Positions 186-17,647 of a DNA stretch of 45,447 nt are shown in pieces. A program made the position numbers and the translations under genes. Source of the DNA: an uncultured Lachnospiraceae bacterium (GTDB lineage Bacteria; Bacillota; Clostridia; Lachnospirales; Lachnospiraceae). The first letter of the stretch is position 1. The number at the start of each line of letters is the position of its first letter. Location: assembly GCA_905234595.1 (NCBI GenBank), contig CAJOID010000037.1:1-45447 (forward strand). Direction: 5' to 3'. A model generated the notes under the pieces. The model worked only from the letters and a program-made list of their open reading frames with translations. It was not told the origin of the DNA and did no database searches.

Positions 186-1310
186 CTATACCCGGTCAGG
201 CAGACCGGCAGCCCCTGTGCTCCCGACCAGCAGTTCTTCGGCGCCTGCGGTCTTTCCCAGCAGCCCCCATTTGGATGCATATACGATACACTCTGTTGCT
301 ATCCGGCCTTTCACTCTCGCATCCATGTAGAATGCGATCCGGTCCATGATATGTTCCATGCACTTCCCGGCTATACCGGCATCCTCCATGATCTGATAAG
401 CTTCCTCCGTGGATACACAGTCCAGAATGGAATTCAGTAATCCGGTGCCGGCCCCGCTTCTGACAGCCGCTGCGGCCATCAGCTCCATACGGCAGTCGGC
501 TTCATGCGAATGGGTGTTCATGATTCCGCCGGAGAGCTTGACCAGCTTACCGATATGTCCGCACAGAAGCACGCTCTTAAATCCAAGTTCACCCGCGATA
601 TCCAGAGTCTCTCCGATGTAATTGGAGCATTTGACCGCACGGTCCAGATCATATCCGTAATGCTCCCGCATAAAATCCATTCCGTAATTACCCGGTGATA
701 TCACAGCCGTATGCGCCCCTTCGGCCCTGATCTGATTAAGCTCTACCCTGATGGTATCTATCAGTGCTCTCGTACTCATAGGTTCGACTATGCCTGTCGT
801 GCCTATTATCGAGATGCCGCCCTCGATACCCAGTCTGGGATTAAAAGTCTTACGGGCGATCTCCTCGCCGTCGGGAACCGATATGATGACACTCAGTGAA
901 CCGGGGTAATCATATTCGTTCATAACCTTATGTACTTCGTCACCGATCATCTGTCTCGGAACGGAGTTGATGGCTGCGTTTCCGACAGGCTGATCCAGCC
1001 CCGGACGTGTGACCCTGCCTACACCCTGACCTCCGTCGATGCTTATGGCGTTTTTACCGTCATCAACTAAGGAAACCGATGCGTATATCAATGTGTCATT
1101 TGTCACATCAGGGTCGTCTCCGGCGTATTTTCTCACAGCGCAGCTGACCATATCCGATGAGACGGACATATCCTCGATCTCAGGCTTATACTCGATCCCG
1201 GCCGGCGTGATGATCGTCACATTAGTAAGTCTGACTCCGCCCAGAAGCATATATGCGGCAGCCTTGGCAGCAGCCGCTGCACAGCTCCCGGTTGTAAATC
1301 CGTAGTTCAT
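186..1310 (-). CDS. cbiD: Cobalt-precorrin-5B C1-methyltransferase CbiD
   Basis: CbiD methylates C1 of cobalt-precorrin-5B using SAM, a cytoplasmic step of the anaerobic route. The 374-residue protein begins [18 protein letters not shown], the hallmark CbiD N-terminus, and carries the conserved [16 protein letters not shown] segment near residue 265. Length is normal for the family. The ATG is preceded by a strong GGAGG. It lies 37 bases downstream of cbiC. Finding CbiD, CbiC and CbiK rather than CobN/CobG marks the pathway as the early-cobalt-insertion, oxygen-independent type. Confidence 0.95.
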
Positions 1311-1347: not shown

Positions 1348-1983
1348 TCAGCTGTCTCTCATGGAATACAGCACCGCATTGCATATCGCCGCTGCCACGT
1401 TGCTGCCGCCCTTGCGTCCTCTGTTTACGATATGCGGGATACCGGATGCAATGATCAGTTCCTTCGCCGCTTCTACGTTTACAAATCCGACCGGCACTCC
1501 TATGACAAAATCCGGAACATATTCACCGGATCCTGCATGCTCGCTCAGAGTGATCAGTGCGGTAGGCGCATTTCCGATCGCGAATATTACAGGCCTGTCC
1601 AGTTTCATGGCACGTTCCATGCTGATGGATGCTCTGGTGATGCCGCGTTCTTTAGCTTCGGCAGCCACATCATCATCCGCCATAAAACACCGGACATCTC
1701 CCCCGTAGCGTGCAAGTTCCTTTTTGTTGATACCTGAAAGTGCCATATTTGTATCGGTGACTATGGTTGCCCCCGATCTGATAAGTGTCCTGATCCCGTC
1801 CATTGCTCCGTCGGAAAAAACAAGCGTGGAAGCATAGTCAAAATCAGCCGTGGTATGGATACAGCGCTTGATCACCGAAGCAGTATCTCCGGTAAGCACT
1901 ATCCCCATACCGGCAAGTTCTTCGGTCAGTATCCTGAAGCTTTCTTTTTCTATATCAGCAGGCTGAATATGAGAGATCTGCAT
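1348..1983 (-). CDS. cbiC: Cobalt-precorrin-8 methylmutase CbiC
   Basis: CbiC moves the methyl group from C11 to C12 of cobalt-precorrin-8 to give cobyrinate. The protein has 211 residues, as usual for the family. Visible family signatures are IKRCIHTTADFDY near residue 43, containing the histidine that in CobH protonates the substrate, and GRKGGSNVAAAI near the C-terminus. It lies between cobD and cbiD in the same orientation with short gaps, so it is cotranscribed with them. Confidence 0.95.
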   Translation of the reverse strand: MQISHIQPADIEKESFRILTEELAGMGIVLTGDTASVIKRCIHTTADFDYASTLVFSDGAMDGIRTLIRSGATIVTDTNMALSGINKKELARYGGDVRCFMADDDVAAEAKERGITRASISMERAMKLDRPVIFAIGNAPTALITLSEHAGSGEYVPDFVIGVPVGFVNVEAAKELIIASGIPHIVNRGRKGGSNVAAAICNAVLYSMRDS

Positions 1984-2001: not shown

Positions 2002-3063
2002 TCAGTGTCTGATATCACGTATTGCAGCGGCAAGCAGTTCATTATCCTCACTGTTTCTGACCGCTGTTCTGTATGATCCCTGTCCTGCACCGGGCATATC
2101 GGCCAGATTTCTGATCAGCATGCCCTTCTTAAGCAGCGGCTCGTAAATATCCGTATCCGTACTGAACATCATAAAGACCGTATCGCTTGCATACACCTTA
2201 CATCCGGCTTCTGCAAGAAGACGGCTCAGATGCTGTCTCTCACCTGCTATCATCTCCAGGGAGCGGGTGATATATCCGCCTTCGGTCATCACCCTTGCAC
2301 AGGCTTTCATCGCATATGCTGCCGGCTGGCTTATATTCCACTCGGGCAGACACATGCGGATCCCCGATATGTTTTCCTCATTCGATATCACATATCCCAT
2401 GCGCAAACCGGGTAATGCAAAAAGTTTCGTATACGACCTGATGATATACAATCCCGGATACCGGTCGGTCAGAGCCTGTATATCCCTGCTTCGTCCGGCC
2501 TCAGACAAGGCCTTATCCGACAGATAATAAAAGCTCTCGTCCAAAAGGACACTGATCCCCGCGTCTGATGAGTATTCGAGGATATCATCAAGTGCGGATC
2601 CGTCGATATTCCGGCCGGTGGGATTCCACGGATCACACAGAAAGATCATATCCGCATCCGCAGGTATACGATCTGTGATACTGCCGTCAATATCCGTCCC
2701 CTGCTCCCGGCTCAACGGAATATCCGTCACCCTGCATCCGGCAAGCGGCTCTAATGCATGTCTGTATCCTCCGAAACAGGGCGTAAAAAGGATCGCATGC
2801 TTCGGCTTTACATAACTTGTAACACCCGTTATAAGTTCACTCGCACCGTTCCCGGCCAGAACATTGCCGGGCTTTACTCCGTCAGAGTAAGCAAGTGCGC
2901 GCCTCAGACTCTCCTGCCGCGGATCAGGGTATTCCCCCAGATGAGCAATGCCTTCCTGTACCGCATCATATATCTCCTGCGGAGTACCCATTGGATTCAG
3001 GCTCACTGAATAATCAATACTGATATTGTGTCTGTATATATCCCCTCCATGAGTCATGGTCAC
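2002..3063 (-). CDS. cobD: Threonine-phosphate decarboxylase CobD (PLP-dependent)
   Basis: CobD decarboxylates L-threonine-O-3-phosphate to (R)-1-amino-2-propanol phosphate, the linker that joins the corrin ring to the lower nucleotide. The 353-residue protein is a fold-type I aminotransferase: the PLP-binding lysine is in SYTKLFALPGLRMGY (about residue 213), after the conserved DPWNPTGR and LLDESFYYL segments. The family is close to histidinol-phosphate aminotransferase (HisC); location inside a cobalamin operon and an ATGA overlap with cbiB decide for CobD. Confidence 0.92.
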   Translation of the reverse strand: MTMTHGGDIYRHNISIDYSVSLNPMGTPQEIYDAVQEGIAHLGEYPDPRQESLRRALAYSDGVKPGNVLAGNGASELITGVTSYVKPKHAILFTPCFGGYRHALEPLAGCRVTDIPLSREQGTDIDGSITDRIPADADMIFLCDPWNPTGRNIDGSALDDILEYSSDAGISVLLDESFYYLSDKALSEAGRSRDIQALTDRYPGLYIIRSYTKLFALPGLRMGYVISNEENISGIRMCLPEWNISQPAAYAMKACARVMTEGGYITRSLEMIAGERQHLSRLLAEAGCKVYASDTVFMMFSTDTDIYEPLLKKGMLIRNLADMPGAGQGSYRTAVRNSEDNELLAAAIRDIRH

Positions 3064-4088
3064 AGACCTTTCCTAATGATCAGATATAATGCGCCGATCA
3101 TGATGAGCATGATGAACTCCGATGCGAACATGAGCCGGTTGGCATACCTTATATGCACTGTCCTGATCTGTCTGTCATCATCGCCAATCACAGGCTTTTC
3201 CACAGGCACCCCGTGATAAAAGGACGTACCTCCGAGCCGGATCATCAGGCTCCCCGCACATGCGCTCTCGGTCTGCGCGGAATTGGGGCTTAAGTGTTTT
3301 CGTCTGTCACGCCTCCAGATCCGGTACGCTCCTGATGCCGAACACTCATGTAAAAAAAAACCCAGTATACCCGAAGATATGATGATCAGCCATGCGCTTA
3401 TCCTTGAGGGTACATAGTTAAACGCATCATCGGCTCTGGCAGCTGTCCGTCCGAAATACTCATATCTGTCATTGTGATAGCCCAGCATGGAATCCATGGT
3501 ATTGACCGCTTTATACATTAACCCCAGAACCGGTCCGCCCAGAGCGGTATACAGGAGCGGAGCCAGCACGCCGTCGGAAGTATTCTCCGCCACGGTCTCC
3601 ACGGCAGCTCTGATCATACCGGACTCATCCAGCCTGTCAGTATCACGCCCCACTATCATGGCCAGATCATGTACGGCTGCATCCGTATCGCCCCGCTCAA
3701 TATCCCTGCATACTTTCATGCTCTCATCATAAAGACTGCGTGCCGCAAGGATATAGCACGTGAGAACCGATTCAACCGCAATACCTGCGTATGGATGTAT
3801 GAGATAGGCTCCTCCCATGACCGCAGCAGTGACCACAGTCGTAGCGACCAATACCGTGATCCACAGCATGGTTCCACGGCGGATCATCCGGGCCGGAGCG
3901 AACGCTTCTTCGGATACCGTATCAGCTTCCGTTCCTTTCTCCGGATACGTTTTTTTCTCCAGAGCGGATATCAGCCTGCCTATGCCTACTACCGGATGCG
4001 GTATCCCGTGAGGATCACCGATGCACAGATCAAGCATGCAGCCTGTCACTAATGCGATCATATGATAACAGATCAATTCTCTCATCAC
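3060..4088 (-). CDS. cbiB: Adenosylcobinamide-phosphate synthase CbiB
   Basis: CbiB is an integral membrane enzyme that attaches aminopropanol phosphate to adenosylcobyrate. Near the N-terminus is the family signature LDLCIGDPHGIPHPVVGIG; a conserved ETVAENTSDGVLAPL lies mid-protein, and several hydrophobic segments follow. The first codon is GTG at 4088, with an ATG immediately after it at 4085, so the gene overlaps the 3' end of cobC by more than 50 bases. A second ATG at 4061 would remove nine residues and fits the usual CbiB start better, so the start is uncertain. The end overlaps cobD by four bases. Confidence 0.93.
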   Translation of the reverse strand: MMRELICYHMIALVTGCMLDLCIGDPHGIPHPVVGIGRLISALEKKTYPEKGTEADTVSEEAFAPARMIRRGTMLWITVLVATTVVTAAVMGGAYLIHPYAGIAVESVLTCYILAARSLYDESMKVCRDIERGDTDAAVHDLAMIVGRDTDRLDESGMIRAAVETVAENTSDGVLAPLLYTALGGPVLGLMYKAVNTMDSMLGYHNDRYEYFGRTAARADDAFNYVPSRISAWLIIISSGILGFFLHECSASGAYRIWRRDRRKHLSPNSAQTESACAGSLMIRLGGTSFYHGVPVEKPVIGDDDRQIRTVHIRYANRLMFASEFIMLIMIGALYLIIRKGL

Positions 4089-4641
4089 TTATCTCTAAAT
4101 CCAGAACGTATCCGTCCAGATTAGGACAGATATTCGCATAAAAATCATTCCCTGCAAGTGTGGACATTACAGACATGATATTTCCGCCGTGACATACTAT
4201 CACGATATCGTTGTCTTCCGGCGTCAGCCTGATCACCTGCTCAAACCCGGACATGCTACGCCTGATCAGATCATCCATTGATTCTCCGCCGGGTATGCGG
4301 TCACGACCGCCTGAGTCTATCCATGCCTGATACCTCGGATCACCGTCCAGTTCGGCATGTGTGTGTCCGTCCATGATCCCGAAATCAAGTTCCTTCAAAT
4401 CACTCATTTCAGTCAGTTCTTTTGTACCGAACAGGATCTGTGCCGTCTCGACAGCTCTGATGAGCGGACTTACATAGAGGCTGAAGTGATTTCCCGCAAT
4501 CTCAGCAATCTTTTCTTTAATGACGCTTGCCTCCTGCCGGCCGTTATCGGACAGCGGCTCGTCGGTACGACATCCCATGAATCTGCCGGTTTCGTTGCCG
4601 TCGGTCTTTGCATGACGGATCAGAATACATCTCTTGTTCAT
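4030..4641 (-). CDS. cobC: Alpha-ribazole-phosphate phosphatase CobC (histidine phosphatase family)
   Basis: This 203-residue protein belongs to the histidine phosphatase (phosphoglycerate-mutase-like) superfamily. It has the catalytic RHAKTDGN near residue 9 (the RHG motif with Ala in place of Gly), a partner histidine in IVCHGGNI, and KELDFGIMDG with the acidic residue. In cobalamin operons such proteins remove the phosphate from alpha-ribazole-5'-phosphate or from adenosylcobalamin phosphate. The sequence alone would support only a generic phosphatase; placement between cobS and cbiB gives the role. It overlaps cobS by ATGA. Confidence 0.85.
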   Translation of the reverse strand: MNKRCILIRHAKTDGNETGRFMGCRTDEPLSDNGRQEASVIKEKIAEIAGNHFSLYVSPLIRAVETAQILFGTKELTEMSDLKELDFGIMDGHTHAELDGDPRYQAWIDSGGRDRIPGGESMDDLIRRSMSGFEQVIRLTPEDNDIVIVCHGGNIMSVMSTLAGNDFYANICPNLDGYVLDLEISDERIDLLSYDRISDRLHA

Positions 4642-5411
4642 GACACTATAAGACTTACCGCAGCGATGGCGATACAGCCTGTCACCTCACTCATAGTCAG
4701 CAGATACCCCGCTGTATCTCCGGTCACACCTCCGAACTGAGAGATGACCATATGCCTGTAATATAATGCAAAAAGGATCAGTGCGGCAGCCACACCCACC
4801 GCATACATATATCCGGTACATGCGATCCCTGCAAGAGATGCGATGAACCATATCCACTGCGATACCAGGATCCCTCTCCTGTTTCCGGCAGTCTCTGCCC
4901 GAAGCATTCCTTTATCTTTTGCTCCCGGCAGAAGCATGGCCAGCAGACCGCTCACAGACCTGGCGGATACATACAGCAATCCCAGCGATATCACCGCACG
5001 CATATCGCGCTGATGAACTATCACGCCTGCTGCCCCGATATATGCAAGAAGCGCAGCGATCACGGATATGACTGCAAAAGATCCTATATGCGGATCGCTC
5101 AGTATCCTGAGTTTCTCCTCTCTGTCCCGATACGAACTGCGGGCATCCATCGTATCCATATATCCGTCCAGATGGAATCCTCCGGTGACCAGGATCGGGA
5201 TCAGTGTAAGCACTGTGCATACTGCAATATCAGGCAGACCGATCCGCACGGATCCGGCATAGGCCGCAACGGATAAAACTCCGATCACGGCTCCGATCAT
5301 GGGGAAAAACACCAGGCTGTGCCCGTAGTCCTCCTCAGTCCACTCAAATCGTGGCATCGGTATTCTGGAATATATGGAAAAACTGACTGCCATCCATCTG
5401 AAAAACTTCAT
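4638..5411 (-). CDS. cobS: Adenosylcobinamide-GDP ribazoletransferase (cobalamin synthase) CobS
   Basis: CobS is the membrane enzyme that joins AdoCbi-GDP to alpha-ribazole, completing the nucleotide loop. The 257-residue protein starts with the family pattern FSIYSRIPMPRFEW and contains FHLDGYMDTMDARSS (about residues 79-93), the acidic metal-binding motif of the CobS family. Multiple hydrophobic segments fit an inner-membrane protein. It overlaps cobU and cobC by four bases on each side, so it is translationally coupled to both. Confidence 0.95.
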   Translation of the reverse strand: MKFFRWMAVSFSIYSRIPMPRFEWTEEDYGHSLVFFPMIGAVIGVLSVAAYAGSVRIGLPDIAVCTVLTLIPILVTGGFHLDGYMDTMDARSSYRDREEKLRILSDPHIGSFAVISVIAALLAYIGAAGVIVHQRDMRAVISLGLLYVSARSVSGLLAMLLPGAKDKGMLRAETAGNRRGILVSQWIWFIASLAGIACTGYMYAVGVAAALILFALYYRHMVISQFGGVTGDTAGYLLTMSEVTGCIAIAAVSLIVS

Positions 5412-5971
5412 GATCTGCTCAGCGCCTCACGTATCTCTTCTGTTCCGTCCACTCTGCCGGCAATCTCCGCCAGCCTCTCATTCACCGTATTGTTCAGCTC
5501 AACATACAGCCTTGTCGTATCATCATAACCTTTTGCATCGGGCTCAAATCTGTTCGCCACGATCACCAGATCCTTGCATCTCTCCGACAGCATCCTGATA
5601 TCGGAAACGACCGCATCCGCCGTATCTTTAAGCCACTCGTCACGCGGACATCCGGCACGGTCATACGCCCTGTCGGGATCATCATACATTTCATTTCCGA
5701 CCAGGTTGGATACACACTCCAGCAATACAACCGACTGCGCGGGTGACGTGATATGTTCAAGTGCTCTGTCTACTCTGTACGGGATCTCCAATGTCACGAA
5801 GCCTTTTCCCTCTCTCATCTGCCTGTGCTTACGCACGCGCGCTTCGGACTCTTCATCGACCACGTTCATGGTCGCGATATAATACAGTTTTCCCGCAGAC
5901 ATCGCCATCACCAGTTCTTCGGCATATCTTGATTTGCCGCTGTCGGGCTCACCCAGTACCAGCACGATCAT
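5408..5971 (-). CDS. cobU: Adenosylcobinamide kinase / guanylyltransferase CobU
   Basis: CobU phosphorylates adenosylcobinamide and transfers GMP to it. The protein has 187 residues. The nucleotide-binding P-loop is GEPDSGKS (7-14). KHRQMREGKGFVTLE (about 49-63) contains the histidine that carries GMP in the family, and the C-terminal part has the conserved NRFEPDAKGYDDTTRLYVEL segment followed by NTVNERLAEIAG. It overlaps cobT and cobS by ATGA. Confidence 0.95.
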   Translation of the reverse strand: MIVLVLGEPDSGKSRYAEELVMAMSAGKLYYIATMNVVDEESEARVRKHRQMREGKGFVTLEIPYRVDRALEHITSPAQSVVLLECVSNLVGNEMYDDPDRAYDRAGCPRDEWLKDTADAVVSDIRMLSERCKDLVIVANRFEPDAKGYDDTTRLYVELNNTVNERLAEIAGRVDGTEEIREALSRS

Positions 5972-7065
5972 TTCTCATCAAACCTCTCATAACGGTCTAT
6001 CCCAGCATCGGATCCGAAGCGCGTGCCACATGTATAGAGTGAATAAGCCATATCGATCAAAGGCATCAGAAGCAGTGCCCCGCTTCCTTCTCCGAGAGCC
6101 AGGTCGGCATCTATGACAGCGTGCAGACCCAGACGATCAAGTATCTCTCCGCATCCTGCCTCACGTCCGTTATGCGATGCGAGCATATACTCCCTGCATC
6201 CCGGAACGATCATATCCGCACACAAAGCTGACGTTGCACTGATCAGCCCGTCTATGATGACGGGGATATGATGATATGCCGCTCCGATAAATACGCCGGC
6301 CAGCCCGGCTATATCCAGACCGCCGAGAGTACGAAGCGCTTTAAATGCCATCTCCTGAGTGCCGGCATCGTCACCGGAACTACCTTCCATGCCGTGCAGT
6401 TTAAGTGCCCGGTTTATCACATCGATCTTGCGTGCCAGACCTTCATCATCAAGTCCGGCGCCACGCCCCGTGACCGCCTCCGCGCTCAGCCCGCACAATG
6501 CACACATCACTGCTGTCGCCGTGGTCGTATTGCCTATGCCCATCTCACCGGTTGCTATCAGAGAGTATCCTTTTTCCTTCAGCTCATGAACCAGCTCCAT
6601 GCCTGTCGTGACCGCCTGAAGGCATTCCTCCTCTGACATGGCCGCTGTCACGGCAATATCTCCCGTTCCGCGCCTGACCTTACGGTCTGTAACACCGGGG
6701 ATCTTATCATCGCTGTCGATACCTATGTCCACCGGAAGTATATCCACGGGATAGGAAGCACTCATGATACCCACAGAACTGTTCCTTTGTCCCATGAGAT
6801 GCGCCACCCTGGCAGTCACCTCACTTCCGGTCTGAGTGACTCCTTCGGCAACCACTCCGTTATCGGCACACATGATGATCAGAGCCTTTTTATCCGTCAC
6901 AAAATCAGCAGTCCCGTGTATCGCTGCGATCCTGCAGAGCATCTTCTCCAGGTCTCCGAGTCCGTCTATCGGTTTGGCTATCGCATCCAGACGACGGCGT
7001 GCTTCCTCATACGCCTGCCCGGACGGCTTATTTAGTTTTAATCCGTATAATCCGTCTGCAGTCAT
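5968..7065 (-). CDS. cobT: Nicotinate-nucleotide-dimethylbenzimidazole phosphoribosyltransferase CobT
   Basis: CobT transfers phosphoribosyl from nicotinate mononucleotide to the lower-ligand base, making alpha-ribazole phosphate (or an analogue). The 365 residues match the family length of about 350. Signatures visible are EMGIGNTTTATAV, TGRGAGLDDEGLARK and, near the C-terminus, LGEGSGALLLMPLIDMA, whose glutamate is the family's catalytic base. No lower-ligand synthesis gene (bluB, bza) is visible, so the native base cannot be predicted. It overlaps the btuD-cbiP fusion and cobU by four bases on each side. Confidence 0.95.
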   Translation of the reverse strand: MTADGLYGLKLNKPSGQAYEEARRRLDAIAKPIDGLGDLEKMLCRIAAIHGTADFVTDKKALIIMCADNGVVAEGVTQTGSEVTARVAHLMGQRNSSVGIMSASYPVDILPVDIGIDSDDKIPGVTDRKVRRGTGDIAVTAAMSEEECLQAVTTGMELVHELKEKGYSLIATGEMGIGNTTTATAVMCALCGLSAEAVTGRGAGLDDEGLARKIDVINRALKLHGMEGSSGDDAGTQEMAFKALRTLGGLDIAGLAGVFIGAAYHHIPVIIDGLISATSALCADMIVPGCREYMLASHNGREAGCGEILDRLGLHAVIDADLALGEGSGALLLMPLIDMAYSLYTCGTRFGSDAGIDRYERFDEK

Positions 7066-9377
7066 GGCCTCACTATCCCCATCATCTCATATATCGAGTC
7101 CATGTCGAGACATTCTCTTAAGTGTGCTGCCAGCTTATCATACATGGCTTCGCTTTCATCGAAATGTCCCCGCATCATGCTCACATCGATATCCTTGCCC
7201 TTATGTGCAGCGATCAGACTTACAAGCCGGGGAGCCACACCCTCTTCATCAAAAATACCGTGTATGTAAGTTCCGTATACATTTCCACTGCAGCATCCGG
7301 TGCCGTCGGGCGCATAGACACAGGCCTCTGCATCGGTGTAATCCGGATCCGACCCGGCCGGTGTCGTGATCCCGTTATGTATCTCATATCCGGTCACCTG
7401 CATCCCGCTCATATCTTCCAGCACACCCTTCCATGACGGAATATGTCCGGTGTATAGGGTACGTGTCTTTTCCCGGGCCATCACAGTCTCAACAGGCAGA
7501 AGACCCAGTCCCGGAGAGGTAACACCGCTCTCCACTCCCTCCGGATCGCTGATGCGCATACCCAGCATCTGATATCCGCCGCAGATACCTATGACCACGC
7601 CGCCTCCGCCTGCGCGTGCATAAGAAATAACGGCATCATCCAGTCCATGCTGTCTCATCCACTCAAGATCACCGCCGGTATTCTTCGTGCCGGGCAGAAT
7701 GATGACATCGGGATCGCCCACACCATCCGGATCATCCACATATCTCACGGATATATCAGGCGCCTGCCCGAAGACATCCATATCCGTGAAATTGGAAATC
7801 CTCGGGAATCTGATAACACATATATCAAATGCTTTCTTACCGCGCACCGAGAATCTGTCCGAGAGTGAATCTTCATCCTCCAGTCTGATATCAAGGTATG
7901 GCACCACACCGGTCACGGGCTTGTGTCCCTTTTCCTCCAGGATCCTTACACCGTCTTCAAACAGCCCGATATCTCCTCTGAATTTATTGACGATCAGCCC
8001 CTTAACACGGGCTCTTTCATCAGGTTCGAGCAGTTCGAGTGTACCTATGAGCTGTGCGAACACCCCTCCCCTGTCTATATCCCCTACCAGGAGTACCGGC
8101 GCATCCGTCATCCGTGCAAGTCCCATATTTACAATGTCATTCTTCTTCAGATTGAGTTCGGCGGGAGACCCGGCTCCCTCGATGACGATGATATCGGCCA
8201 TGCCGGAGAGTTTCTCATAAGCAGACATTATCTCCGGGATCAGCTGCTGCTTGTACCGGAAATACTCGGCGGCGCGCATATTGCCCACGGGGATGCCGTT
8301 TACTATGACCTGCGATCCCTGATCGTCCGTGGGTTTAAGGAGAACGGGATTCATGCATACGAGGGGCTCTCTCTTGCAGCATCCGGCCTGCATTACCTGA
8401 GCTCGTCCCATCTCCAGTCCCTCACTCGTGACGTATGAGTTAAGCGCCATGTTCTGAGACTTAAAAGGTGCCACGCTGTAACCGTCCTGCGTAAATATCC
8501 TGCACAGACCTGCTGCGATCATACTCTTGCCCGCTCCGGACATGGTGCCCTGGATCATGATCGCTCTGGCACCCGTGCGGTGCGTATCCGTCCCGTTTTC
8601 TTCAATACCTGCATGAATATCCGCGGTTTTCTCCATCCACGGTCCCGGACCCAGCAGACTGATATCCCTGTCTTCTATTCCGTATAACCGGCGTATGAAA
8701 CTTTCTTCAAAGACCTCCTGCGGAGTCCCGGACCTTAAGATACGTCCCTCACCGACAGCAACCACGAAATCGGATATCCTCATGGCAGGCTCGAGCTCAT
8801 GCAGCGACATTACCACTGCAACATTATCCCGGTCCGCTATGGTTCTGATCGTATTAAGTATATCCAGCCTGTATCTGATATCCAGATACGAAGTCGGTTC
8901 ATCGAGTATCAGCACACGGGGCTGCTGGCATATCGCGCGCGCCAGCATCACACGCTGTCTCTGTCCGTCACTGATACGGTCAAAGAATCTGTCAGCCACT
9001 TCACGGGATCCCGTCAGATCAAGTGCATGATCCACTGTCTTCTCATCAGACTCCTTAAGCTTGCCGAATCTGCCGGTATACGGGTATCTGCCCATTGCCA
9101 CCACTTCACGGCAGGTCATCATCCTCGGACGCACGGATGAGGTCATCAGCATGGACATGTTCTGTGCTTTATCGAGAGCATTCATTCCTCCCCGGGCTTC
9201 CAGCTGGCCGGTCAGGGTTTTAAGCAATGTCGACTTGCCGCTTCCGTTGGGACCTATGAGCGTCACTATCCTGCCGGGCATAACATCCAGCCCGATACCG
9301 GTGATCAGGTCGGAATCATAACCGATAGCCAGGCCATCCGTATGAAGTATTCTGTCCTGTTGCATATCAGCCCGCAT
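7062..9377 (-). CDS. Fusion: BtuD-type ABC transporter ATPase + cobyric acid synthase CbiP
   Basis: One uninterrupted 771-residue frame encodes two enzymes normally made separately. Residues 1-245 are an ABC ATPase of the siderophore/B12 type: Walker A GPNGSGKS at 42-49, signature SDGQ at 136-139, Walker B LILDEP at 156-161 and the switch histidine in SLHELE at about 193. After a short linker, residues 270-771 are CbiP/CobQ: a DTBS-like ATP site GTMSGAGKS at 277-285, then the glutamine amidotransferase domain with nucleophile Cys599 in GICGGYQMLG and His706 in YGTYIHGIFDE. CbiP amidates four side chains of adenosylcobyrinate a,c-diamide. The gene overlaps btuC by 11 bases and cobT by four. 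Both halves keep their catalytic residues, so both are probably active. The start could also be the ATG four codons in (9365). Confidence 0.95.
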   Translation of the reverse strand: MRADMQQDRILHTDGLAIGYDSDLITGIGLDVMPGRIVTLIGPNGSGKSTLLKTLTGQLEARGGMNALDKAQNMSMLMTSSVRPRMMTCREVVAMGRYPYTGRFGKLKESDEKTVDHALDLTGSREVADRFFDRISDGQRQRVMLARAICQQPRVLILDEPTSYLDIRYRLDILNTIRTIADRDNVAVVMSLHELEPAMRISDFVVAVGEGRILRSGTPQEVFEESFIRRLYGIEDRDISLLGPGPWMEKTADIHAGIEENGTDTHRTGARAIMIQGTMSGAGKSMIAAGLCRIFTQDGYSVAPFKSQNMALNSYVTSEGLEMGRAQVMQAGCCKREPLVCMNPVLLKPTDDQGSQVIVNGIPVGNMRAAEYFRYKQQLIPEIMSAYEKLSGMADIIVIEGAGSPAELNLKKNDIVNMGLARMTDAPVLLVGDIDRGGVFAQLIGTLELLEPDERARVKGLIVNKFRGDIGLFEDGVRILEEKGHKPVTGVVPYLDIRLEDEDSLSDRFSVRGKKAFDICVIRFPRISNFTDMDVFGQAPDISVRYVDDPDGVGDPDVIILPGTKNTGGDLEWMRQHGLDDAVISYARAGGGGVVIGICGGYQMLGMRISDPEGVESGVTSPGLGLLPVETVMAREKTRTLYTGHIPSWKGVLEDMSGMQVTGYEIHNGITTPAGSDPDYTDAEACVYAPDGTGCCSGNVYGTYIHGIFDEEGVAPRLVSLIAAHKGKDIDVSMMRGHFDESEAMYDKLAAHLRECLDMDSIYEMMGIVRP

Positions 9378-10383
9378 TCTTTCTTCTCCCCAGCATCATC
9401 CGGATCACGACAGGAACCAGCAGCACCGCTGTCACTGAACTGATACTCACTTCAGTCGGTGCAAATATGCTCCTGGCTATACAGTCACACATAAGAGTTA
9501 CCACCGCTCCTCCCAGGAAGCATGACGGTATCATTACCGCCGGCGAAGAAGTCCTGACCGTGTTTCCGACCAGATGAGGAACGGCGATCCCCACAAACGA
9601 TATAGGGCCGGCAAATGCTGTCACGGATGCTGCCAGCAGGCTCGAGATCACGATGAGCATCACCTTGAGCAGGCGTATGTTCACACCCATGCTGGCCGCA
9701 TAAGCCTGTCCGAGACGGTATGCGCTTATCGGTTTTGACATACATACCGCGCATGCCAGACAAACGAGAGCTAAAACGGACATTATTGTGACTTGTGTCA
9801 TATTTATGCCGCTAAGTGAGCCCATAGACCAGTTATGCAGATTGACTATATTGGAATCATCGGCAAATGTGACAACGAAATCGGTGATTGCGGAACATAT
9901 ATATCCGATCATTATCCCGCATATTACCAGGAGACTCATGCTGCGTGTTTTGGATGAGATCAGCAGCACGAAAACCATAGCCATCATCGCTCCGGCAAAA
10001 GCCGAGACGATCATTCCGAAAGAGCCTATATTGCGTCCCTTTGACAGCAGAAATATCAAAGTGAGCGCTACAGTCAGTTTCGCTCCGGATGAGATGCCCA
10101 ATACAAACGGTCCGACGATCGGATTATCAAAAAAGGTCTGGAGCAGATATCCGGACAAAGCCAGACAGCCGCCGAGCACAATGGCCGCGATCATCCTCGG
10201 AAGTCTGATGTTCATGATTATATTGGTCCACATCTCATCAGAGGATCTGCCCAATACCGCTGATATCACTTCTCCCGGAGGTATGCTCACGCTCCCGGTC
10301 ACGGCATTGATCCATACCAGCATTGCCAGACAGACCAGCATCAATATGAAGACAATTGTGACTCTCTTACGATCCATGATCAT
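9367..10383 (-). CDS. btuC: FecCD/BtuC-family corrinoid ABC transporter permease
   Basis: This 338-residue polytopic membrane protein is a permease of the iron-siderophore/cobalamin (FecCD) family. It has many hydrophobic segments and the conserved stretches RLPRMIAAIVLGGCLALSG near residue 60, GPFVLGISSGAK, and AFAGPISFVGIAVPHLVG near residue 260, which is the coupling-helix region of BtuC. The start overlaps the stop of the upstream lipoprotein gene by four bases and its 3' end overlaps the ATPase fusion by 11, so permease and ATPase belong to one transporter. Context indicates a corrinoid or a cobalt-tetrapyrrole as substrate; sequence alone would not exclude a siderophore. Confidence 0.92.
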   Translation of the reverse strand: MIMDRKRVTIVFILMLVCLAMLVWINAVTGSVSIPPGEVISAVLGRSSDEMWTNIIMNIRLPRMIAAIVLGGCLALSGYLLQTFFDNPIVGPFVLGISSGAKLTVALTLIFLLSKGRNIGSFGMIVSAFAGAMMAMVFVLLISSKTRSMSLLVICGIMIGYICSAITDFVVTFADDSNIVNLHNWSMGSLSGINMTQVTIMSVLALVCLACAVCMSKPISAYRLGQAYAASMGVNIRLLKVMLIVISSLLAASVTAFAGPISFVGIAVPHLVGNTVRTSSPAVMIPSCFLGGAVVTLMCDCIARSIFAPTEVSISSVTAVLLVPVVIRMMLGRRKNAG

Positions 10384-11900
10384 TCAACCCGGTTAAGATA
10401 AACAAACTCATCACTGCTGCCGGTGAAGGCATTGTGCAGGTCATTCATAAAGTCCGCCATGCCGGTGGTCTTCTGGAAAAAATCCTCGGATGTACAGTAG
10501 ACCCTGCCGTTTTTCACCGCTTTGAAACCGGCAAAAAGCTTATTCTTCGATATCAGTTCATCCAGCGATCCGATCTCTCCGCCGATGGTACTGTTGTATA
10601 TGATGATATCAGCATCCGCAGCTGCGGCATAGAAGTCTTCCATCTGTATGTTCATCGTGGACAGCATATTATCATCATCTTTGCCTGTGATCACATAGTG
10701 ACCCCCGGACATTTCTATCATTTTGGATATATAATCACCCGGCTTACGGACATTGATCATGCCGGATGCGGTCACATGGAAGAAAGCAACGCTGAGTCCG
10801 GTATCCGGCTGCTCCATGACGAACTGCGCCTTGCTTATCTCTTCATCATAATACGAATCCGCTGTCTCCTCGGTCCCAAACAGTGTTCCGTAGAATCTGA
10901 TCCATTCCAGACGGCCGAGAGGATGTTCTTCATAGCTCGACATCTCCACCACAACAGGGATCCCCAGTTCTTCAAGTTTTTCCTTCACTGCAGGCTCATG
11001 ATATATCATGGTATTCTCCACGGCCAGATCACAGCCCTGTCCCATTATCATTTCGTAGTCGGGAGCCTTGTACTTGCCCGCGTATACTATGTCTCCACGC
11101 TCCATGGTTGTCCTGACCTCATCCACATGCCAGTCATCCGCTTCCAGAGATGACATGCTGACCGATCCCAGAGCTCCTGCCTTACTGACCAGATCCATCG
11201 CCGAAGTGGATACGATATAAGAGCTGTCAAGCGGCATCTGCAGGACAGTGATATCATCCGGCACATCCGCAGGCACCGGCACGCCATCGGGAACCAGCAG
11301 GAAATCCTGATCTTCATCGACATGTATCAGCTTATACTCACCATACATTTCCACACTGAATCTCTCTGCATACTTAAGGTCCATGACTCCGGTCTGTTCC
11401 AGCCCGTCATAAGACGGAGCATCGCTGTTTTTCGCGATTTCCGGGGCATTCTTCCCGGCATTCCCTTTCCCGCCTGCCGGATTATCCGGTACATCTGCAT
11501 TTTCTGCATCACTGTTCTTCTGTCCACCCCAATAGATCACGTATTCTATCTCATGAGGAGTGCTCATGGCCACGGTGTCACCTATAACAGTCAGCGGTTC
11601 ATCCAGCCTCTTTACCGGAACGGTGAAAGTCGAGCTCTCTCCGGGAGTCTCATTATCGTACTTTACTCCGTCCACGATCATGTAATCATAATTCGGACTA
11701 CTCCAGACAAGTTTAGCTGTGATCGTGCCGTCAGACTCCGTGATCGTGACCGGTGAAATGATATATGCTTTGCCCGATCCGCCTTCCATCGTGATATCGA
11801 CATCATACGAAGTAACCCCCTGCGATGCGCAGGAGGTCACTGTAAGCATGATCCCTATGAAGATAAATAATAGTTTGATCCTGTGTGATATCTTCAACAT
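10380..11900 (-). CDS. btuF: BtuF-type substrate-binding lipoprotein with extra N-terminal beta-domain
   Basis: The 506-residue protein has a lipoprotein signal: a basic start, a hydrophobic stretch and lipobox VTSC with Cys24. Residues about 30-130 form an added domain (SPVTI..DGTITAKLVWSS..YDYMIVDG..STFTVPVKRLDEPLTVIGDT) with a beta-sandwich-like pattern, followed by a Gly/Asn/Pro-rich linker. The remainder resembles class III periplasmic-binding proteins of B12/siderophore uptake (FGTEETADSYYDEEI in the second lobe region). It should be anchored outside the membrane and deliver ligand to the BtuC permease encoded next. The added domain resembles the C-terminal domain of the adjacent CbiK. 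Confidence 0.87.
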   Translation of the reverse strand: MLKISHRIKLLFIFIGIMLTVTSCASQGVTSYDVDITMEGGSGKAYIISPVTITESDGTITAKLVWSSPNYDYMIVDGVKYDNETPGESSTFTVPVKRLDEPLTVIGDTVAMSTPHEIEYVIYWGGQKNSDAENADVPDNPAGGKGNAGKNAPEIAKNSDAPSYDGLEQTGVMDLKYAERFSVEMYGEYKLIHVDEDQDFLLVPDGVPVPADVPDDITVLQMPLDSSYIVSTSAMDLVSKAGALGSVSMSSLEADDWHVDEVRTTMERGDIVYAGKYKAPDYEMIMGQGCDLAVENTMIYHEPAVKEKLEELGIPVVVEMSSYEEHPLGRLEWIRFYGTLFGTEETADSYYDEEISKAQFVMEQPDTGLSVAFFHVTASGMINVRKPGDYISKMIEMSGGHYVITGKDDDNMLSTMNIQMEDFYAAAADADIIIYNSTIGGEIGSLDELISKNKLFAGFKAVKNGRVYCTSEDFFQKTTGMADFMNDLHNAFTGSSDEFVYLNRVE

Positions 11901-13668: not shown

Positions 13669-13714
13669 CAGCTTCTGGTTACGTACGGCCAATTACTCGT
13701 GACCCGGAATATAT

Positions 13715-13910
13715 TCCAGTACCGGTAAACGGCAGGTCTCCTGGCTTGAGCATCATCACATACGTACGCCTTCCCGGTATTCCCAGTGACTGTCGTGACT
13801 TCTGTTGATCAGTTATATCACGACCTGTCCGCATGCTCCGCTGTCACAGTGACGAGTTCGCACAGGTTTTGCACCTGTTTCCCTATTATCCCGTACCGAA
13901 ATGCCTGCAA
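13715..13910 (-). promoter_or_regulatory. Cobalamin (AdoCbl) riboswitch
   Basis: On the minus strand the B12 box AAGCCAGGAGACCTGCCG is at 13747-13730, matching the rAGYCMGgAgaCCkGCCd consensus. About 130 bases upstream is the other core element, AATAGGGAAACAGGTGCAAA, followed by a helix that ends in ACCTGT. CGGTA near 13893 can pair with TACCG near 13722 to close the outer stem. It precedes cbiK and the whole cobalamin operon, so it should lower operon expression when cobalamin is plentiful. The intergenic stretch 13,578-14,037 contains only this riboswitch, its terminator and the hairpins listed. Confidence 0.95.
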
Positions 13911-13963
13911 TCCATCAGTCGCATCCCGCATCCCTACGGGCACCGTTTATCATCATATTAAAT

Positions 13964-17056: not shown

Positions 17057-17647
17057 TTACTGTTTATAAAGCACACTCTTCAGTGGTTTCCATACGATGA
17101 AGAAATAGACAAAACCGATAAGTGCAGTAATAAACTGTGTGATTGAAAAGGTTGTCTGGAATACAGGCATCTTTCCCCTGATCGGTGATGCCTCGGGAAT
17201 AAATGTCGGAAGAAGCCAGAGGGAGATGGTCAGACCCATGAAGCATCCCTTGGCCAACGCCGATAAAACAGCCATGATCACGGAGCGGACATTAATAAAT
17301 GAACCCTCACCCGATATGGCCGGTCTGAACAGGAAATATACCATTACTACCAGGACCGCATTGCCCAGCATGATGAGCGGTATGATACCGGGAACCGCAT
17401 TCATCACGGGTGATGCGGCTATGATAAATGCGGTAACAGGTGTTATGATCGCAAGTACGATGCCCCACGTAAGTCCGGCAGTCAGCGTAGCCAGTATCAG
17501 ACACAGATTAACGATCGGCCCCGTAATATATACGCTGAGGGTCTTGAAAATCTGGCTGGCGATACATACCGCCAGAAGAACTGCGGTTATCGCGATCTGT
17601 TTTGTAAGAGTCTGTGTTTTTGTGTCGTTCATTTTTTTGTCGTTCAT
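17057..17647 (-). CDS. ECF transporter S component, substrate unknown
   Basis: This 196-residue protein has about six hydrophobic segments. It begins with a short polar tail followed by TKQIAITAVLLAVCIASQIFK, the pattern of ECF-transporter substrate-binding (S) components, including the small-residue-rich first helix that contacts EcfT. No ecfA or ecfT is in the window, so it would use a shared energising module encoded elsewhere (group II). Ligand is not readable from the sequence. A clear AAGGAG precedes ATG 17647; the first 16 bases of the gene are nearly duplicated in tandem, giving a second ATG six codons in. It lies between the GNAT-EAL gene and the hydrogenase-like receptor, all on the minus strand. 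Confidence 0.85.
   Translation of the reverse strand: MNDKKMNDTKTQTLTKQIAITAVLLAVCIASQIFKTLSVYITGPIVNLCLILATLTAGLTWGIVLAIITPVTAFIIAASPVMNAVPGIIPLIMLGNAVLVVMVYFLFRPAISGEGSFINVRSVIMAVLSALAKGCFMGLTISLWLLPTFIPEASPIRGKMPVFQTTFSITQFITALIGFVYFFIVWKPLKSVLYKQ

Follow-up and report, generated by a model that had tools for sequence, protein, structure and literature searches.

An importer ATPase joined to cobyric acid synthase in a B12 operon of Lachnospiraceae, and a candidate route for precursor uptake

The fused reading frame and its operon

The DNA considered here, the window in the following, is a stretch of 45,447 nucleotides from an uncultured Lachnospiraceae bacterium (assembly GCA_905234595.1, contig CAJOID010000037.1, positions 1 to 45,447), and its minus strand carries a vitamin B12 operon in which the ATPase of an ATP-binding cassette (ABC) importer continues in frame into cobyric acid synthase, CbiP. 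Starting from a cobalamin riboswitch, the genes follow each other in the order CbiK, binding lipoprotein, permease, fusion, CobT, CobU, CobS, CobC, CbiB, CobD, CbiC, CbiD and CbiF (Table 1), and contig C88 continues the pathway with the C-terminal part of CbiF, CbiG, CbiH, CbiJ, CbiET and CbiA. The riboswitch lies at the same position in seven of seven relatives, i.e. in all eight operons examined when the window is counted. This gene cluster seems to let the cells start B12 synthesis from a scavenged precursor ring and not from a ring they have made themselves.

The fused gene is read from the minus strand, as stops interrupt the plus-strand translation of 7062-9377. Pfam assigns residues 27-163 to ABC_tran (94.6 bits), 273-496 to CbiA and 518-712 to GATase_3; by Pfam and NCBIfam, an ABC ATPase of the FecCD-importer type spans residues ~10-235, and residues 272-766 represent a full-length cobyric acid synthase (NF001989, 622 bits at a cut-off of 273; TIGR00313, 483 bits at a cut-off of 310). 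A first-pass annotation, made from the sequence letters only, had described a single 771-residue frame of this kind, and the open reading frame and both profile collections bear this out. It had also called both halves intact, which holds for the motifs it named, i.e. Walker A GPNGSGKS, Walker B VLILDEP and signature ISDGQRQR in the ATPase half, where an H-loop MSLHEL is present as well, and the nucleotide site GTMSGAGKS and the glutaminase Cys/His motifs GICGGYQ and GTYIHG in the CbiP half; it does not hold for the ATPase domain as a whole, from which 11 residues are gone in the window's copy. Like the CbiP/CobQ of the S. typhimurium type, which the CbiP half matches over the full length and with the amidotransferase and nucleotide-site motifs kept, this half is probably an ordinary CbiP that amidates corrin side chains. 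CbiP/CobQ proteins elsewhere stand alone or are joined to CobD, whereas the one in the window is joined N-terminally to an ABC ATPase.

The names BtuD and BtuC, which the annotation had used, stand at the family level and not beyond, as the corrinoid-specific model NF007082 scores 162.6 with the ATPase half at a cut-off of 537, and no corrinoid-specific NCBIfam model exceeds its cut-off for the ATPase half or for the adjoining permease. In a Foldseek search, the structures closest to the ATPase half were those of the heme importers BhuUV and HmuUV, and BtuCD-F was matched as well. The system resembles these FecCD-family importers (BtuCD, HmuUV, BhuUV) in having a FecCD permease, a Peripla_BP_2 binding protein and an ATPase with all signature motifs, and it differs from them by the whole biosynthetic enzyme at the C-terminus of the ATPase. 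The source assembly contains no second CbiP, the fusion thus being the sole copy, and no alternative ATPase that matches above about 35% identity; apart from the permease of the operon, no clear FecCD protein was found in the genome. The proposed position of CbiP beside the BtuC-type permease agrees with the single ATPase-CbiP chain and with this permease as the only clear partner, and the location at the membrane would follow from that association.

Table 1. Features of the fused gene and of the surrounding operon in the window
Feature	Positions	Strand	Basis
Cobalamin riboswitch heading the operon	13714..13962	minus	RF00174, 99 bits
CbiK cobaltochelatase, a surface lipoprotein with a NEAT-like domain at its C-terminus; only CbiK of the genome	11913..13577	minus	Pfam, lipobox, fold
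Substrate-binding lipoprotein (Peripla_BP_2) with N-terminal NEAT-like domain	10380..11900	minus	Pfam, homologous fold
FecCD/BtuC-type permease	9367..10383	minus	Pfam, NCBIfam
Fusion of BtuD-type ABC ATPase and CbiP (cobyric acid synthase), 771 aa	7062..9377	minus	Open reading frame, Pfam, NCBIfam
ATPase half, FecCD-type nucleotide-binding domain, residues 1-~245	8643..9377	minus	Pfam, structure matches
Linker, residues ~246-271, unconserved, predicted disordered	8565..8642	minus	Alignment, dN/dS, model
CbiP half, residues ~272-771, with the motifs of the ATP site and of the Cys/His amidotransferase	7065..8564	minus	NCBIfam, motifs
CobT	5968..7065	minus	PF02277
CobU	5408..5971	minus	Sequence and gene order, no profile scan
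CobS	4638..5411	minus	Sequence and gene order, no profile scan
CobC-like phosphatase	4030..4641	minus	Sequence and gene order, no profile scan
CbiB, membrane enzyme using the product of CbiP	3060..4088	minus	TIGR00380
CobD-like aminotransferase	2002..3063	minus	TIGR01140, under cut-off
CbiC	1348..1983	minus	NF006137, under cut-off
CbiD	186..1310	minus	TIGR00312
TP_methylase start, CbiF by sequence, cut by contig end	1..177	minus

The linker between the halves has a length of 20-54 residues, differs in sequence in every subgroup of fused proteins and is predicted to be disordered, with a predicted local distance difference test score under 50 at residues 237-268. Purifying selection acts strongly on both halves (ratio of nonsynonymous to synonymous substitution rates, dN/dS, 0.06 for the ATPase half and 0.10 for the CbiP half in comparison with isolate XBB2008) and not on the linker (dN/dS 1.14 in comparison with the close relative L038). 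No stop and no conserved internal start occurs in the linker of the fused proteins. An internal restart that yields free CbiP was considered and rejected, as the linker contains neither a conserved start nor a conserved Shine-Dalgarno sequence, a weak candidate being seen in L013 alone. Nothing in this variable, unstructured linker suggests a built channel.

The 11 residues missing from the window's copy correspond to a private in-frame deletion of 33 bp after residue ~64 (window ~9183-9184, minus strand), in the strand region that follows the Walker A helix of the ATPase half, and the predicted model of the fusion has low confidence at residues 63-82. The same copy has a private 6-bp insertion ahead of GICGGYQ. 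The 33-bp deletion may reflect a lesion in this strain or a fault in the assembly. For conclusions on the fusion in general, the relatives are the basis, and not the window's copy by itself.

Distribution and origin of the fusion

The one-frame joint of ATPase and CbiP was found in 17 further Lachnospiraceae genomes, i.e. in 18 with the window, among them the isolate Lachnospiraceae bacterium XBB2008 (L041) and the assemblies G593 (L105; two contigs, 99% complete) and G628 (L106; nine contigs). The carriers form a group whose members live in gut and rumen. As the 17 other genomes have the same single frame, a sequencing or assembly error is ruled out as the origin of the joint, and the one-base read error by which the annotation thought that its reading could fall is thus eliminated. 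In a survey of 299 Lachnospiraceae genomes, nearly one per genus, a CbiP match was present in 181, and eight of these 181 had the fusion. Outside the family, the architecture was detected in none of 392 genomes of the order and 391 of the class at the thresholds used, which distant or low-scoring fusions could escape, and in the nearest match, G971, ATPase and CbiP are split by one stop. Within the family, the fusion has been retained over about ten genera, to about 50% identity, and no re-splitting was seen. Long CbiP frames of G119, G074, G112, G111 and others proved on inspection to be no BtuD fusions; they were misleading because open-frame lengths can run across a stop. Two of them (L192 in G119 and L193 in G074) are CbiP frames of ~750 aa that have a C-terminal extension and no BtuD. 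In G041, a 92% complete genome of the window's genus, no CbiP match was obtained at E 1e-60, and the operon may be absent there.

How did the two genes come together? The gene order of unfused relatives matches (btuF-btuC-btuD-cbiP-cobT), and in L033, L034, L046, L107 and L195 btuD and cbiP share one reading frame and are separated by a single stop codon, so that the loss of this stop would fuse them. Judged from these sequences, the fusion arose within one lineage of Lachnospiraceae when btuD and cbiP, adjacent in the operon, were joined. The phylogenies point to one or two fusion events. A single origin is favoured by the CbiP tree, in which the fused proteins form one clade (support 82) with one lone CbiP within it; the joint tree supports a single fused clade weakly (24), and the ATPase tree does not recover such a clade, yet does not reject it (approximately unbiased test, p 0.176). 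In many split relatives, BtuD has an extra C-terminal domain of ~130 residues that the fused proteins and L046-L048 do not have, and for which Pfam gave no match even at E 10. This domain (VFVIAGGGSG...) was seen in the unfused L016, L018, L019, L033, L034 and L068.

A second, unrelated kind of fusion, in which CbiP is N-terminally fused to CobD, occurs in Leptospirales, Desulfovibrio, Planctomycetota, Spirochaetes and others (L073, L076-L080, L082-L084, L086, L090). With such cases at hand, it is harder to take a fusion alone as a sign of substrate channelling. In the open-licence papers searched, we found neither an ATPase-CbiP fusion described nor the surface module discussed below as an entry to such pathways; the annotation knew of no characterised example.

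The surface module and the missing early steps

The operon CbiK matches PF06180 with 232 bits at a cut-off of 26, has the lipobox LAGCG, and its motifs MGHG, VEGEP and VAGDHA align with the His/Glu/His site of the S. typhimurium CbiK. Its relatives in the PDB are CbiK (1qgo), FetB (9b86) and a Desulfovibrio chelatase (2xvx). For the binding lipoprotein, the lipobox VTSCA was read in the XBB2008 orthologue. In relatives, a separate lipoprotein (L047:4813-5673) has two domains, of which one corresponds to the C-terminal domain of CbiK and one to the N-terminal domain of the operon's binding lipoprotein. Its predicted structure consists of two beta-sandwiches, and the best Foldseek matches of these in the PDB are NEAT domains, those of IsdH, IsdB and IsdX1. 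With this homologue as query, a NEAT fold is predicted for both domains. The Pfam NEAT model (PF05031) scores sub-threshold on the C-terminal domain of CbiK (18.4 versus 32.8 bits) and has no match on the N-terminal domain of the binding lipoprotein, and PDB sequence searches with the NEAT-like protein and with the binding lipoprotein returned nothing. The stand-alone two-NEAT lipoprotein of relatives appears divided in the window's lineage, with one domain attached to CbiK and one to the binding protein, and further groupings of NEAT-like domains were seen in L046, L068 and L190. Flat porphyrins, heme for example, are ligands of NEAT domains, and a surface cobaltochelatase with NEAT folds points to a flat tetrapyrrole cargo that enters long before CbiP.

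Similar exported chelatases are known. The periplasmic CbiK of Desulfovibrio vulgaris is a class II cobaltochelatase that, unlike the CbiK of the window, is not fused to a NEAT domain, and of which Lobo et al. reportedly described an exported form in 2008. FetB/IhtB of Porphyromonas gingivalis is a surface lipoprotein of the same CbiK family that is associated with an ABC importer and has been reported to act at the cell surface, where it exchanges the metals of scavenged porphyrin (PMC13402209). Unlike FetB, the CbiK of the window comes from a Gram-positive bacterium, belongs to a B12 operon behind a cobalamin riboswitch and is fused to a NEAT domain.

The fused genomes lack early steps of the pathway. 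The early enzymes searched for genome-wide were ALAD (HemB) and uroporphyrinogen-III methyltransferase (SUMT); HemB was detected in 0 of 14 fused genomes and SUMT in 0 of 10. The extra TP_methylases of G593, G080 and G190 are CbiL and not SUMT, and off-operon TP_methylase matches of ~290 aa were taken as RsmI by their size. CbiL is absent from six of nine fused relatives (G628, XBB2008, G290, G193, G156, G1007) and also from the window's own assembly, which is incomplete. Exactly one CbiK is present per fused genome, and it is the operon lipoprotein wherever context or start were inspected. The two inspected genomes that have a small CbiK without lipobox, G102 and G1010, both have HemB. The ring-building genes from CbiH onward are kept under the cobalamin riboswitch, and since the first steps are missing while later ring-building is retained, the precursor must come from outside.

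By their gene content, the fused genomes show the pattern of tetrapyrrole-precursor salvagers, as HemB and SUMT are missing and corrin genes are present. Shelton et al. defined such salvagers, mainly among Firmicutes, and verified the dependence on aminolevulinic acid (ALA) in three species (PMC6461909). The two groups are alike in keeping the corrin pathway without early tetrapyrrole steps; the verified salvagers need ALA, whereas the fused genomes additionally lack HemB and SUMT and possess a putative importer of a late precursor. An organism from a rumen metagenome that has no tetrapyrrole-precursor genes, eight of ten corrin steps and BtuFCD has been classed as cobinamide salvager (PMC12654859). 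For the way in which bacteria with a corrin pathway but without its first steps obtain their precursor, the operon supplies a complete candidate route with NEAT collectors, surface cobalt insertion, an importer and the remaining pathway, which is testable in the isolate.

Possible cargo of the importer and role of the tether

A mechanism can be proposed in which the NEAT domains would gather a scavenged flat tetrapyrrole, a free isobacteriochlorin, into which the surface lipoprotein CbiK would insert cobalt outside of the cell, if chelation runs in this direction. The cobalt-loaded ring would then be imported by the binding lipoprotein and BtuC/BtuD, with the ATPase half of the fusion driving this FecCD-type importer, and cytosolic Cbi enzymes would complete the corrin, so that CbiP would act about nine steps after entry. 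The cargo is thus most likely a cobalt-loaded tetrapyrrole precursor, i.e. cobalt-sirohydrochlorin or cobalt-factor III. In the fusion, importer and pathway are physically connected within one natural protein, and the loose linker would tie CbiP to the transporter, with two copies per complex of the BtuC2D2 type. CbiB and CobS are membrane enzymes, and such a tether could fix the ratio of CbiP to the importer and hold CbiP at the membrane near CbiB. Probably, the fusion has no role in direct transfer, and serves only for co-expression and tethering of CbiP.

Several observations weigh against this account. The unfused G169, G269 and G971 are also without HemB, and HemB loss is therefore not tied to the fusion; among the early tetrapyrrole enzymes, the genome-wide searches covered HemB and SUMT; and G268 has HemB and SUMT and no CbiL, so that the absence of CbiL alone cannot fix the entry point. 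The 11 residues missing from the window's ATPase half remain in L038 (96% identical) and in the other aligned fused orthologues. CbiB elsewhere sits at the membrane without any fusion, so that the tether may be helpful or neutral. On balance, we regard the account as a whole, with a fusion of neighbours, ordinary halves, a loose tether, no hand-off and import of a cobalt-tetrapyrrole, as somewhat better than an even bet. The more general proposal that cells without HemB, SUMT and often CbiL enter the B12 pathway by importing externally cobalt-loaded sirohydrochlorin or factor III, and that one lineage has joined its importer ATPase to CbiP, is tentative and falls slightly short of even.

What alternatives exist? 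The annotation had suggested that imported incomplete corrinoids are handed straight to amidation, and the physical fusion of importer ATPase and CbiP would suit such a transfer. However, the ring genes that act before CbiP are kept and would be needless if cobyrinic acid a,c-diamide were imported, the surface module of NEAT domains and CbiK is present, and no conserved structure exists in the linker. The known salvaged corrinoids (cobinamide, cobyric acid, cobamides) moreover re-enter the pathway after CbiP, and this hand-off is the least probable of the explanations considered. That the ATPase half now serves chiefly as membrane anchor or has lost its function, at any rate in the window's strain, is scarcely more credible: the 33-bp deletion and the low model confidence that accompanies it would fit, but in the other aligned fused copies the stretch is present and no motif is lost, the ATPase half is under the strong constraint described, and the source genome offers no other good candidate for a partner ATPase. 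A surface module for the acquisition of heme or iron in the manner of FetB/IhtB, unrelated to cobalt, would agree with the NEAT folds, the similarity to FetB and the structural proximity of the ATPase to BhuUV and HmuUV; as the module shares one operon with B12 genes behind a cobalamin riboswitch in all relatives examined, it appears quite improbable.

Two further explanations are unlikely as well, and deserve more weight. Import of cobamides by BtuFCD is well known, and the BtuFCD-type gene order, the cobalamin riboswitch and the presence of BtuCD-F among the Foldseek matches speak for an ordinary importer for B12 or cobinamide salvage, with CbiK and the ring genes independently serving de novo synthesis. 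In that case, the sub-threshold scores of all corrinoid-specific models and the lipobox and NEAT domain on the sole CbiK would be difficult to understand, and de novo synthesis cannot start without HemB and SUMT, which makes this explanation rather doubtful. Slightly more plausible, if still improbable, is a neutral operon fusion, in which a stop was lost between co-transcribed neighbours and the halves remained unchanged with an inconsequential tether. The single stop between in-frame neighbours in several relatives and the unconserved, disordered linker argue for it, and so do the CobD-CbiP fusions elsewhere, by which CbiP appears to tolerate fusion to whatever neighbour lies upstream. Its retention across genera without re-splitting argues against neutrality, as does the fact that the sole member with a stand-alone CbiP (L017/G068) is also without CbiK.

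Outside of the operon, positions 17057-17647 of the window encode a membrane protein of 196 aa with a sub-threshold match to the S component of energy-coupling factor transporters (PF12822, 21 versus 30.7 bits).

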